This document shows positions 206 to 53,708 of a stretch of 64,000 nt of DNA, piece by piece. Position 1 is the stretch's first letter, and each line of letters opens with the position of its first letter. The notes under the pieces are model-generated. The model worked only from the letters and a program-made list of their open reading frames with translations, was not told the DNA's origin and searched no databases. This DNA is from Chitinophagales bacterium (GTDB taxonomy: Bacteria > Bacteroidota > Bacteroidia > Chitinophagales > UBA2359), in the NCBI GenBank assembly GCA_020628375.1, contig JAHDFD010000014.1:1-64000 (forward strand), in the 5' to 3' direction. The translations under genes and the position numbers were made by a program.

Positions 206-343
206 TCTAACTGTAATGGACAATCAACTTATGGACATTTTATTGTTGGTCAGGCGACCAACAAAGGTCTGTACCTCAGTTGGTCGCCTGACCAACTGAA
301 TTTCTTTAAAGTATACACAAGTTAGTTGCCTATTACATCTAAC
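206..343 (-). mobile_element. MITE-like element, 126-bp family, copy 1, with target duplication
   Basis: The element spans 212-337 and is flanked on both sides by TCTAAC (206-211 and 338-343), a plausible 6-bp target duplication. Its ends are imperfect inverted repeats beginning TGTAAT. Inside are two palindromes, TTGGTCAGGCGACCAA and TTGGTCGCCTGACCAA, which also pair with each other, so the whole element folds back on itself. It is inverted relative to the copies at 11571 and 53474. It has no coding capacity, so movement would need a transposase encoded elsewhere. Calling it mobile is an inference from the ends and the duplication. Confidence 0.75.
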
Positions 344-3992: not shown

Positions 3993-4284
3993 GTCATTCT
4001 GAACGAAACGAAGCTTTGCGTAGTTGAAGTGAAGAATCTATAAGTTATAAGTACCAACTCACAATTACTTGTAAGTTTGAAATGTTCTATTTTCTCGTTC
4101 AATTTCGTTAAAAATACTCAACTTAGCCCTGCTATGCTTCCGTTTTTTGCCCGCTTCGGCGGTCCGATCATTGACCAAAAAAATAATTCCATTTCCAAGT
4201 TTAAACTAATTATGTGTCGGTACTTAGGAGGTATTAGATTCTTCATTCCAAATTTCGCTTTGCTTATTTTTCAATCAGAATGAC
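3993..4284. repeat. Composite palindromic element: two inverted 47-bp repeats around a palindrome
   Basis: Two copies of the interspersed repeat that ends GAAGAATCT face each other, at 3993-4040 (plus) and about 4236-4284 (minus). Between them, a second pair of inverted arms (CACAATTACTTG near 4060 and the matching CAAGTTTAAACTAATTATGTG region near 4195-4215) surrounds copy 2 of the long-palindrome family, with its TAGC CCT GCTA centre near 4129. Nearly the whole gap between the ABC permease and gltX is therefore one large imperfect fold-back. A short frame at 4077-4283 lies inside it and looks spurious. Confidence 0.6.
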
Positions 4285-11395: not shown

Positions 11396-11421
11396 TTGAC
11401 CGGATAACAACCCTAATTTCC

Positions 11422-11468
11422 AGATTCTTCACTTCAACTACGCAATGCTTCGTTTCGTTCTGAATGAC
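11422..11468 (-). repeat. Interspersed 47-bp repeat ending GAAGAATCT, copy 2
   Basis: This is the inverse of the repeat at 3993-4040 and 49332-49378. On the minus strand it runs from GTCATTCAGAACGAAACGAA to GAAGTGAAGAATCT. It lies just after the uvrA stop. Similar sequences are frequent between genes in many Bacteroidota. Confidence 0.75.
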
Positions 11469-11564: not shown

Positions 11565-11702
11565 GTTATGTGTAATGGGGAACTAACTTGTGGATACTTT
11601 AAAGAAATTCAGTTGGTCAGGAGACCAACTGAGGTTCAGACCTTTGTTGGTCTCCTGACCAACAATAAAATTTCCATAAGCTGATTGCCCATTACAGTTA
11701 TG
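11565..11702 (+). mobile_element. MITE-like element, 126-bp family, copy 2, with target duplication
   Basis: The element at 11571-11696 is exactly 126 bp, like copy 1, and is flanked by GTTATG on both sides (11565-11570 and 11697-11702). Its ends TGTAATGGG and CCCATTACA are inverted repeats. The internal palindromes are TTGGTCAGGAGACCAA and TTGGTCTCCTGACCAA. It lies between uvrA and a serine hydrolase gene, 54 bp past the latter's stop. Confidence 0.8.
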
Positions 11703-20380: not shown

Positions 20381-20851
20381 ATTTCAGATTTTTTATCTTT
20401 TGGTTTTATCTTATCAATCGCTGTTCCAAGTGCTTTTTGCTGACAGAATGTCTTTTTGTGGTTTCGTTGTTATGACAAGGTTTCATAGGTATGATGTGGT
20501 TATTGACATGTGGGTTCCCAATTTGGGCTGGCTTAAATTATAAAGACATTCTTACACCTTTGAAGATATTGACATTCGTTAGTATGACTTTTGTTTTGTG
20601 GGAGATGCTGACATTCGTCAGTATGACTTTAGGTTTGTTTAGTGTTTATTTAGCTGATAAGGGATTGGCTTTTTACTATAAGTATTTGTTTGTCAACAAA
20701 ATACACATTTATGATGGAATAATCTCTTTAAAATATTTAGGAAAATAGAAAAAAGTGAAGTTTTATGTTTTGTTATTTCACTTCAACTTTGGAGTGTAAT
20801 TTAATTACACACTTATAATATTTTTTAACTTTACAGCATAAACCTTTTATT
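20381..20851. other. Non-coding gap upstream of htpG with two hairpin-array units
   Basis: No convincing gene is seen; a short frame at 20491-20748 is probably chance. At 20564-20630 two units of the hairpin repeat that forms the array at 23072-23484 are present. Confidence 0.5.
20564..20630 (+). repeat. Two isolated units of the 37-bp hairpin repeat
   Basis: The units contain TTGACATTCGTTAGTATGAC and CTGACATTCGTCAGTATGAC, separated by about 40 bp. They match the unit of the array 2.5 kb away. Confidence 0.75.
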
Positions 20852-22991: not shown

Positions 22992-23071
22992 TTCTTATAA
23001 TAAATGGGTTACTACAATTTTAAGAGGCTTGCACAAATGTAGTTTGTTTTGGGGGTTTGTTGCAAATTCGA

Positions 23072-23484
23072 GGGGATACTGACATGCGCTAGTATGACTC
23101 GCTGGTTGTAGGAGATACTGGCATGCGCCGGTATGACTCTCGTTGGTTTGTGGGAGATACTGACATTCGTCAGTATGACTCGTGGTTGTGGGGATACTGA
23201 CATGCGTCAGTATGACTCGCGGTTGTGGGGATACTGGCATTCGTCAGTATAACTCGTGGTTGTGGGGATACTGACATGCGTCAGTATGACTCGTGGTTGT
23301 GGGGATACTGGCATTCGTCAGTATAACTCGTGGTTGTGGGGATACTGACATGCGTCAGTATGACTCGTGGTTGTGGGGATACTGGCATTCTTCGGTATGA
23401 CACTTGTTGGTTGTAGGAGATACTGACATGCGTCAGTATAACTCGCGGGTTGTAGGGGATACTGACATTCGTCGGTATGACTTG
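23072..23484 (+). repeat. Tandem array of about 11 hairpin units, period about 37 bp
   Basis: Each unit contains ATACTGAC-ATGC-GTCAGTAT or a close variant, followed by GACTCGTGGTTGTGGGG. Four consecutive units form an exact two-unit duplication (74 bp). Variants keep the ability to pair, for example ATACTGGC with GCCGGTAT using a G-T pair. The array lies between the start of the hypothetical gene at 22991 and the stop of the PorP/SprF gene at 23499. The apparent short reading frames in it are by-products of the repeat. Confidence 0.9.
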
Positions 23485-41906: not shown

Positions 41907-41943
41907 AAGACGAAATACTTCAAAAAGCAAAAAATATAATTAA
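41903..41943 (+). pseudogene. Possible remnant of a gene following the response regulator
   Basis: The sequence ATGA overlaps the response regulator stop, a typical sign of translational coupling, and encodes MKDEILQKAKNII before running into the 146-bp MITE-like element. Nothing beyond the element looks like the continuation. Too little is left to identify the family. It could also be chance. Confidence 0.3.
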
Positions 41944-42095
41944 CCTAAGTTGCGATAAATCTCAACTGTCAACAGTACAATGGTCCACTGTCCACAAAAA
42001 AAACATTATACTCGTGAAGAGTAAGGTTTTGTGGTCTGATAAACAGTCGTCTATGTACAAAAATGTCATTATACATCGCAACTTGAATTAATTAT
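41938..42095 (+). mobile_element. MITE-like element, 144-146-bp family, copy 1
   Basis: The element spans 41944-42089, with inverted ends containing AAGTTGCGAT and ATCGCAACTT. The flanks AATTAA (41938-41943) and AATTAT (42090-42095) match at five of six positions, a possible decayed target duplication. An internal hairpin pairs CCACAAAA with TTTTGTGG. The second copy at 51866 is about 90 percent identical by eye. It has no coding capacity of its own. Confidence 0.7.
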
Positions 42096-42278
42096 ACAAA
42101 ATTAAAAATTAAAAAACGTACAAATTTTCGTGTCATATTGAGCGCAATGTAATGAAGTCGAAATATAGACACCTCCCTATTTCTCAGGGATAACTCTTAT
42201 ATTGGGCTTAACTTTATAGTAGTTCACGCTCTCATAAATGTACGATATATTAAAGTTAAAATGGTATTACAGCAATAC

Positions 42279-49331: not shown

Positions 49332-49378
49332 GTCATTCAGAACGAAACGAAGTTTAGCGTAGTTGAAGTGAAGAATCT
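49332..49378 (+). repeat. Interspersed 47-bp repeat ending GAAGAATCT, copy 3
   Basis: From GTCATTCAGAACGAAACGA to GTTGAAGTGAAGAATCT, 59 bp past the accA stop. It matches the copies at 3993 and 11422 (inverted). Confidence 0.75.
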
Positions 49379-49453
49379 GGAAATTAAAGGTGCAATGAGC
49401 TGTTTTATTTCAATCGTAATACAATTTACGCACCGAAGTTGGACGAGTACTAC

Positions 49454-51782: not shown

Positions 51783-51859
51783 GTTCAGTTTTTTAGTAAG
51801 TATAAGACTTCTCGAAGATAAAAGACAAATCATTTGTTCTGTAGTAGCTAAACAATATT

Positions 51860-52015
51860 AAGTAACCTAAGTTGTGATAAATCTCAACTGTTAACAGTAC
51901 AATAGTCCACTGTCCACAAAAACCATTATACTCGTGAAGCGTAAGGTTTTGTGGTCTGTTAAACAATCGTCTATGTACAAAAATGTCATTATACATCGCA
52001 ACTTGAATCAAGTAA
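51860..52015 (+). mobile_element. MITE-like element, 144-146-bp family, copy 2, with target duplication
   Basis: The element at 51866-52009 is flanked by AAGTAA on both sides (51860-51865 and 52010-52015). Its ends share AAGTTGTGAT and ATCGCAACTT as near-perfect inverted repeats. It matches the copy at 41944 through most of its length. Confidence 0.78.
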
Positions 52016-52050
52016 TAATAATGAATATTCTTTACATATACTAAATAGAA

Positions 52051-53104: not shown

Positions 53105-53708
53105 TAAATTATTTTTTAAGTTACTATAAAATTTATAGTTGCAATGATAATTATTTTTAATAAGCTATACAATAACTGTCAAAATGGATAGTAGGAGATA
53201 AAACAGAGAAATTGATAGTATAACTTACCAGTTTTACAGAAAACGAGCGTCAACCGAAACACTTGATCTTATACCCAAAAGAACAAATGCTATTAACTAT
53301 CTTCTTAAAAATATTGATTGTTGCGGATTCATCTCAACTTAGGTTCTATATAATTATGAATCGTGCGTTTATACATATACATTAGGCTTACTAAACTAGA
53401 TATTCTATATTTACCTTTGGTAGTGTTACTTTACGAGTGATTTTAAAAATTAAAAAGGACATTAGAAATTAGATGTAATAGGCAACTAACTCGTGGATAC
53501 TTTAAAGAAATTCAGTTGGTCAGGAGACCAACTGAGGTACAGACCTTTGTTGGTCTCCTGACCAACAATAAAATGTCCATAAATTGCTTACCCACTAGAT
53601 CTATCGTCTAATATCTTTTTCTGAAAAAGTTAGCTAATAATTTTGATCTAAAATAAAAAAATCACTCAATTAAACCACTATCTTATCTATTAAATACAGC
53701 ATATATAA
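53105..53708. other. Non-coding stretch containing a MITE-like copy
   Basis: No gene is seen. The right part holds copy 3 of the 126-bp family. The left part is AT-rich with no visible signal. Confidence 0.5.
53474..53600 (+). mobile_element. MITE-like element, 126-bp family, copy 3
   Basis: It begins TGTAATAGG and ends CCCACTAGA, with the right end more diverged (CCCATTACA in copy 2). The internal palindromes TTGGTCAGGAGACCAA and TTGGTCTCCTGACCAA are identical to copy 2. It is 127 bp long and I see no clear target duplication, so it is probably older or its edge has decayed. Confidence 0.78.

Follow-up and report, generated by a model that had tools for sequence, protein, structure and literature searches.

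A 126-bp MITE-type element from a Chitinophagales bacterium with an inverted pair of REP-type hairpins inside its terminal repeats

Within the window, the 64,000-nucleotide stretch of Chitinophagales DNA analyzed here, three copies of a short repeat form a hairpin in which a change in one arm is matched in the other. The first-pass annotation had reported that copy 1 carries GGCGACC where copies 2 and 3 carry GGAGACC, with the same difference in the opposite arm, and our alignment shows exactly this. It had classed the repeat as a MITE-like family and had taken the matched change as covariation indicating selection on the fold. The locus therefore raises two questions, namely, what kind of element this is and why its arms change together. 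The features in the window are as follows.

206–211, no strand assigned: left target-site duplication TCTAAC of copy 1
212–337, minus strand: copy 1 of the element, 126 bp, TGTAAT...ATTACA, loop haplotype AGGC in both hairpins
245–262, minus strand: REP-type hairpin B of copy 1, GTTGGTC-AGGC-GACCAAC as read on the plus strand
279–296, minus strand: REP-type hairpin A of copy 1, GTTGGTC-GCCT-GACCAAC as read on the plus strand
338–343, no strand assigned: right target-site duplication TCTAAC of copy 1
11565–11570, no strand assigned: left target-site duplication GTTATG of copy 2
11571–11696, plus strand: copy 2 of the element, 126 bp, loop haplotype AGGA/TCCT
11612–11629, plus strand: REP-type hairpin A of copy 2, GTTGGTC-AGGA-GACCAAC, followed by TGAGG
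11646–11663, minus strand: REP-type hairpin B of copy 2, inverted, preceded by CCTTT
11697–11702, no strand assigned: right target-site duplication GTTATG of copy 2
53474–53599, plus strand: copy 3 of the element, 126 bp, right tip degenerate (CACTAGA), without target-site duplication
53515–53532, plus strand: REP-type hairpin A of copy 3
53549–53566, minus strand: REP-type hairpin B of copy 3

Target duplications and empty sites

Copies 1 and 2 are both 126 bp long and lie between perfect 6-bp duplications (TCTAAC and GTTATG, respectively), in line with the earlier description. Copy 2 lies where uvrA and a beta-lactamase-family gene converge, between their 3' ends. Copy 3 indeed lacks a duplication, its flanks ATTAGA and TCTATC agreeing at 2 of 6 positions, but it ends at 53599 and measures 126 bp rather than the 127 bp first given. 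Its left flank resembles that of locus L013 and its right flank those of L018 and L039, which are two different parts of a host intergenic repeat; this suggests that a deletion via recombination between two elements may account for the absent duplication. Folded as single strands, the three window copies gave z scores of -7.2 to -9.8.

In the genome from which the window was taken (G000; 3.3 Mb in 41 contigs, 69% complete), we found 23 full-length copies of the element (E ≤ 2e-32) and about 8 shortened ones, numbers that exclude a chance family. Every scored copy lies between genes, whether these are convergent, divergent, or in tandem, and none is spanned by an ORF of at least 90 aa. The element thus has the attributes of a MITE, being short, noncoding, bounded by terminal inverted repeats (TGTARTGGGYAA ends), and present in many dispersed copies. 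A role as a terminator or UTR was ruled out by the occurrence of copies in all gene arrangements, divergent ones included, and comparison with Rfam returned only sub-threshold miRNA hairpins, which we took as chance.

A perfect 6-bp target-site duplication flanks 18 of 30 scored copies as aligned and 19 of 30 after realignment of L011, which has lost two end bases; re-pairing the flanks gave an expectation of 2.3 of 30. The duplication never reaches 7 bp and most imperfect copies match at 5 of 6 positions, so that its length is fixed, as in a MITE. The target reads NNTANN, with a central TA in 29/30 copies and CTA or TAG in 23/30. Against a TA frequency of 0.11 in the flanks, the central TA has a p of about 1e-26, a value to be read with the reservation that sites within the same repeat lack independence. 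Indeed, a second intergenic repeat hosts many of the copies, and this allowed occupied and empty paralogous sites to be compared. Occupied host repeats read TCTATC-element-TCTATC, whereas empty ones read GTCTAATG-TCTATC-GTCTAAT or close to it, with the target present once (for example, at C2:56235, C11:64032, and C41:23668). As the empty paralogous sites bear the target once, the assignment to the MITEs with a 6-bp duplication stands.

The second intergenic repeat is about 200 bp long (...GTCTAATGTCTATCGTCTAATATCTTTTTCTGAAAAAGTTAGATAATA...) and is the landing place that the element favours. We saw it at L061-L067 and in the flanks of L005, L013, L015, L018-L023, L026, L029, L030, and L039. Sequences like GAGTGATTTT lie near both of its ends, so this repeat may itself be transposable.

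The sister species of the same genus (G001, 61% complete) contains about eight full-length copies and one short copy with the same plan, and exact 6-bp duplications around the same architecture were found at L031, L036, and L038. Copies with a single hairpin (92 bp) and one without any hairpin (L030, 58 bp) also keep perfect duplications. The one-hairpin copies represent at least three different deletions (L024-L027; L028 and L039; L029), judged by the orientation and loop of the retained hairpin, and each deletion is consistent with a loss between direct repeats of a hairpin arm; the sister species contributes a one-hairpin copy of its own (L089). Copies missing a hairpin, or both, are a minority. 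Since these shortened copies have perfect duplications, the hairpin pair may be dispensable for transposition or may have been lost afterwards.

The element shares with the bacterial MITEs ERIC, NEMIS, RUP, and Nezha its short, noncoding, intergenic nature, its terminal inverted repeats, and its hairpin fold, but differs from them in its sequence and ends, in its 6-bp NNTANN duplication, and in its interior of REP-type hairpins. BrickBuilt of Porphyromonas gingivalis (PMC4596501) is likewise a Bacteroidota MITE with another class of repeat inside; there, however, the cargo is a tandem minisatellite, the ends are IS5-like, and the duplications vary in length.

REP-type hairpins and RAYT genes

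Each full copy contains two hairpins of the form GTTGGTC-NNNN-GACCAAC, placed face to face in inverted orientation and each followed on its inner side by RAGG. The sequence TTGGTCNNNNGACCAA occurs 60 times exactly in the genome, compared to 0 times for a reversed control. Hairpins A and B, with their tags pointing inward, correspond to the two inverted REP palindromes of a REPIN, and a search for Y1 transposases identified candidate partners. The gene at C12:28183-28698 is intact and encodes a RAYT of 171 aa with HUH and YIHNNP motifs; it matches the NCBIfam model of REP-associated tyrosine transposases (NF047646) with an E value of 8.6e-19, a match that falls short of the model's curated cut-off. 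This gene sits in a cluster of the element's hairpins, which lie on both sides of it with similar tags (GACCAACTAAGG). A second intact RAYT gene, at C4:30268-30780, encodes a protein 66% identical to the first and is flanked by CTGTTGGTC-TGA-GACCAACAG, the same stem with a three-base loop. Both genes are thus flanked by the same hairpins, as a cognate RAYT of a REPIN would be, and from their position both are putatively cognate. From this proximity and co-occurrence, we infer that a RAYT may control these hairpins. In characterized group 3 RAYTs, the REP loop is critical for activity (PMC8266576), and by analogy recognition of the hairpin loops by the RAYT is plausible. A PDB sequence search with the RAYT gave only chance matches to viral capsid proteins, and no RAYT was found in the 61% complete genome of the sister species.

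We call these hairpins REP-type, and not canonical REPs, because their tag is RAGG or RGGC on the 3' side of the hairpin instead of GTAG or GTGG at its 5' foot. The doublet also differs from that of a REPIN in being enclosed by a shell of terminal repeats and target duplications instead of forming the dispersed unit by itself. Compared with the REPINs and BIMEs described by Bertels and Rainey in 2011 (PMC3116915), the element has in common an inverted palindrome pair, a short tag by each hairpin, intergenic dispersal, and a RAYT gene flanked by the same units, and paired changes were described there as well; unlike them, it carries the doublet within 126 bp bounded by fixed terminal inverted repeats and 6-bp target duplications, and its tag is a 3' RAGG/RGGC, not a 5' GTAG. 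The RAYT itself resembles subclass 2.6 of Bacteroidetes, which has atypical flanking structures (PMC6006769), in its length (171 aa versus a median of 179 aa), in its WQ and YIHNNP motifs, and in flanking hairpins that are repeated elsewhere in the genome; its HUH motif is NHYH instead of NH[LIV]H, the comparison being one of motifs alone.

When a covariance model built on the entire element was run against 299 genomes of the order, only the two genomes of the genus gave full-length matches with a high score. Five others gave weak matches, mostly to the hairpin core alone, and inspection revealed no shell. The hairpins have a wider distribution. G011, from another genus of the family, contains 103 of them and a 41%-identical RAYT flanked by them, and its congeners G009 and G010 contain 1 hairpin each and no RAYT. 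RAYTs of G017 and G019 lie next to hairpins whose stem differs, so the RAYT clade is not defined by the stem alone. A scan of named genomes found the doublet, but not the TGTAAT shell, in Sediminibacterium, Ferruginibacter, Mucilaginibacter, and others, and one contig from Cytophagales contains a fragment of a RAYT whose end is about 34 bases away from the doublet.

In G011 (L092-L106), a hairpin often has behind it tandem repeats of its own right half (GTCATAAGACCAAAAGTAAGC), which is a different way for REPs to grow. Matches to the doublet pattern in Acinetobacter were rejected as the same element, as they represent one conserved, near-identical stretch in many strains, without TGTAAT ends. 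This stretch, with two TTGGTCNNNNGACCAA palindromes, is present in records of Acinetobacter, Alkanindiges, and Moraxellaceae, one of them a plasmid (L118, L121, L122, L124, L127, L133, L134, L137, L139, L142, L144, L151, and L152), and is possibly an operator pair unrelated to the element.

The RAYT genes and their flanks, which bear the same hairpins, raise the possibility that the element is a REPIN moved whole by the RAYT, its outer repeats and 6-bp duplications coming from the RAYT or from its target preference. That the core is the part conserved between species would agree with this. However, the exact duplications abut the TGTAAT/ATTACA ends and not the REPs, they are perfect in copies with one or no hairpin, and naked REP doublets elsewhere have no such ends. 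Moreover, HUH single-strand transposases (IS200/IS605) are not known to produce duplications of their target. We thus judge movement by the RAYT alone to be very unlikely.

Matched changes in the hairpin arms

We then considered whether the matched arms reflect selection for one long hairpin, either as a DNA cruciform or in RNA, in an otherwise plain MITE, as the proposed covariation implied. In every copy tested, the fold of lowest energy is the long hairpin. Across 30 copies, 13 cells are changed on both sides, a number reached by 0/500 shuffles, and slid versions contain no such cells. However, these double changes are confined to three pairs that follow haplotypes, and the number of pairs was reached by 78/500 shuffles. 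In G000, the matched changes affect two sites and define three loop haplotypes (AGGA, AGGC, and AAGA). The tree of the copies is mostly unresolved and too weak to count independent loop changes.

Unpaired arm changes in other copies had been named beforehand as the outcome that would speak against covariation, and they did occur, in 5 of the 23 own copies (L007, L011, L014, L019, and L022) and in 6 of the 7 from the sister species. The claim that the matched change signals selection on the fold was consequently not sustained in the form proposed. Paired cells are about equally frequent under a local-hairpin and a long-hairpin fold (95.0% versus 95.3%). Pairing in the local hairpins continues past the common core, with base pairs that suit only the hairpin in question; in hairpin A, one such pair has changed on both sides between the species, from A-T to G-C. 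In addition, naked REP doublets of other genera have unmatched loops, AGGC with AGGT in L158 and GGGA with AGGA in L159, and the variety of gene arrangements among the copies argues against a consistent role in RNA. For these reasons, we regard selection to maintain one long hairpin, with true base-pair covariation, as unlikely.

Matched changes are in fact expected of these arms, because they are two inverted REP-type hairpins, subject to homogenization or bearing two copies of one recognition motif. On the sequence evidence, the matched haplotypes are best read as two copies of one motif changing together, and quasi-palindrome correction, exchange between copies, or a shared binding protein are possible causes of their likeness. 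It follows that matched arm changes in a repeat need not imply selection for base pairing.

Core, shell, and the spread of the element

The core and the shell have diverged differently between the two species. In a comparison of the species consensus sequences, 0/36 core sites differed, as opposed to 25/75 sites in the rest of the shell (p = 1.5e-5), and the 12 outermost end sites showed no difference. Within each genome, the core is about as diverse as the shell, and a McDonald-Kreitman-style table gave 0 fixed and 19 polymorphic changes for the core versus 16 and 48 for the shell (p = 0.017). These tests involve two species, one of them represented by seven sequences, and the shell is the less certainly aligned part. 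Copies decay freely once inserted, but the spreading lineage has kept its ends and hairpins, which suggests that the hairpins matter for propagation; the constancy of the core also fits a steady refreshing from genomic REPs.

Such refreshing is the basis of another explanation, namely, that an ordinary MITE captured, or was invaded once by, an unrelated REPIN, the passenger core being conserved only through overwriting from genomic REPs. The shell is confined to the genus and REP doublets occur across Bacteroidota, as this predicts, and AGGC loops are found on two right-end backgrounds (L004/L012/L014 and L013), as if the core had been exchanged or converted. Nevertheless, the similar diversity of core and shell in each genome shows no younger core there, and the low proportion of copies that lack one or both hairpins also argues against a mere passenger. 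In our estimation, this explanation is improbable.

We consider it probable that the element is a nonautonomous chimera, in which a shell of terminal inverted repeats and target duplications surrounds a REPIN-like core, a DDE transposase acts in trans, and RAYT-type hairpins lie inside. The shell, with its TGTAAT/ATTACA ends and imperfect subterminal inverted repeats, would be inserted by a DDE-type transposase that duplicates 6 bp of an NNTANN target and may be IS481-like. The interior would be an inverted pair of REP-type hairpins (GTTGGTC-AGGA-GACCAAC, then RAGG) of the kind that accompanies RAYTs; both hairpins would copy one motif and may stay alike through arm-to-arm correction, exchange between copies, or a shared recognition protein. 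The most fitting description is a MITE-type element whose core is of REPIN type, two known kinds in a new combination. No MITE containing a REPIN was found in the open-access literature searched, which is no proof of absence.

An extension of the chimera reading, that the element answers to two signals, with DDE insertion at the terminal repeats and propagation or retention also via a RAYT reading the REP hairpins, is possible but doubtful. If true, it would account for the constancy of the terminal 6 bp and of the hairpin core between the species, in contrast to the divergence of the remaining shell. The spread of REPs and REPINs, some of the most frequent repeats in bacteria, is still poorly understood; REP hairpins within ordinary transposon ends would give REPs a second way to disperse and would provide a natural experiment on the contribution of the hairpins.

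A transposase with matching TGTAAT ends, proposed earlier as a check, was not found. Exact matches to single ends on C2, C19, C29, and C35 and a one-mismatch site on C8 had no paired end in the stretches inspected, and neither of the two genomes of the genus, complete to only 69% and 61%, contained an rve (PF00665) or DDE_Tnp_1 (PF01609) domain. The element resembles the IS481 family, whose target is NCTAGN (PMC2516522, PMC3279416), in its TGT ends and in the duplication of a 6-bp target with a central TA, but no IS481-type gene was found with these ends and the target is NNTANN, not strictly CTAG, the full CTAG not being seen. An IS481 affinity of the mobilizer is thus only a lead.

Several further repeats were observed. 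A second family of REP doublets has the same GGTCNNNNGACC core and other stems, CTGCTGGTC-GGGA-GACGCAGCAGAG and CTGTTTTGGTC-NNNN-GACCAAAAC, followed by CTTCACAGCCTTACATT; it is present at L033 (about 305 on the plus strand), L053, L054, and L058, with half-matches at L043 and L044. In the window, a tandem array of 37- to 39-bp palindromic units (GGGGATACTGACATGCGTCAGTATGACT...), another hairpin repeat, occupies 23071–23482 and also 20561–20628. A 55-bp dispersed repeat (GTCATTCTGAACGAAACGAAG...GAAGTGAAGAATCT) occurs in both orientations, at 3993–4047, 11414–11468, and 49332–49386. Finally, a repeat of about 170 bp with GTTGCGATAAATCTCAACTG...GTCCACTGTCCACAAAAA is found at 41937–42105 and 51859–52025, its copies being roughly 90% identical, and the flanks of L007 resemble it.
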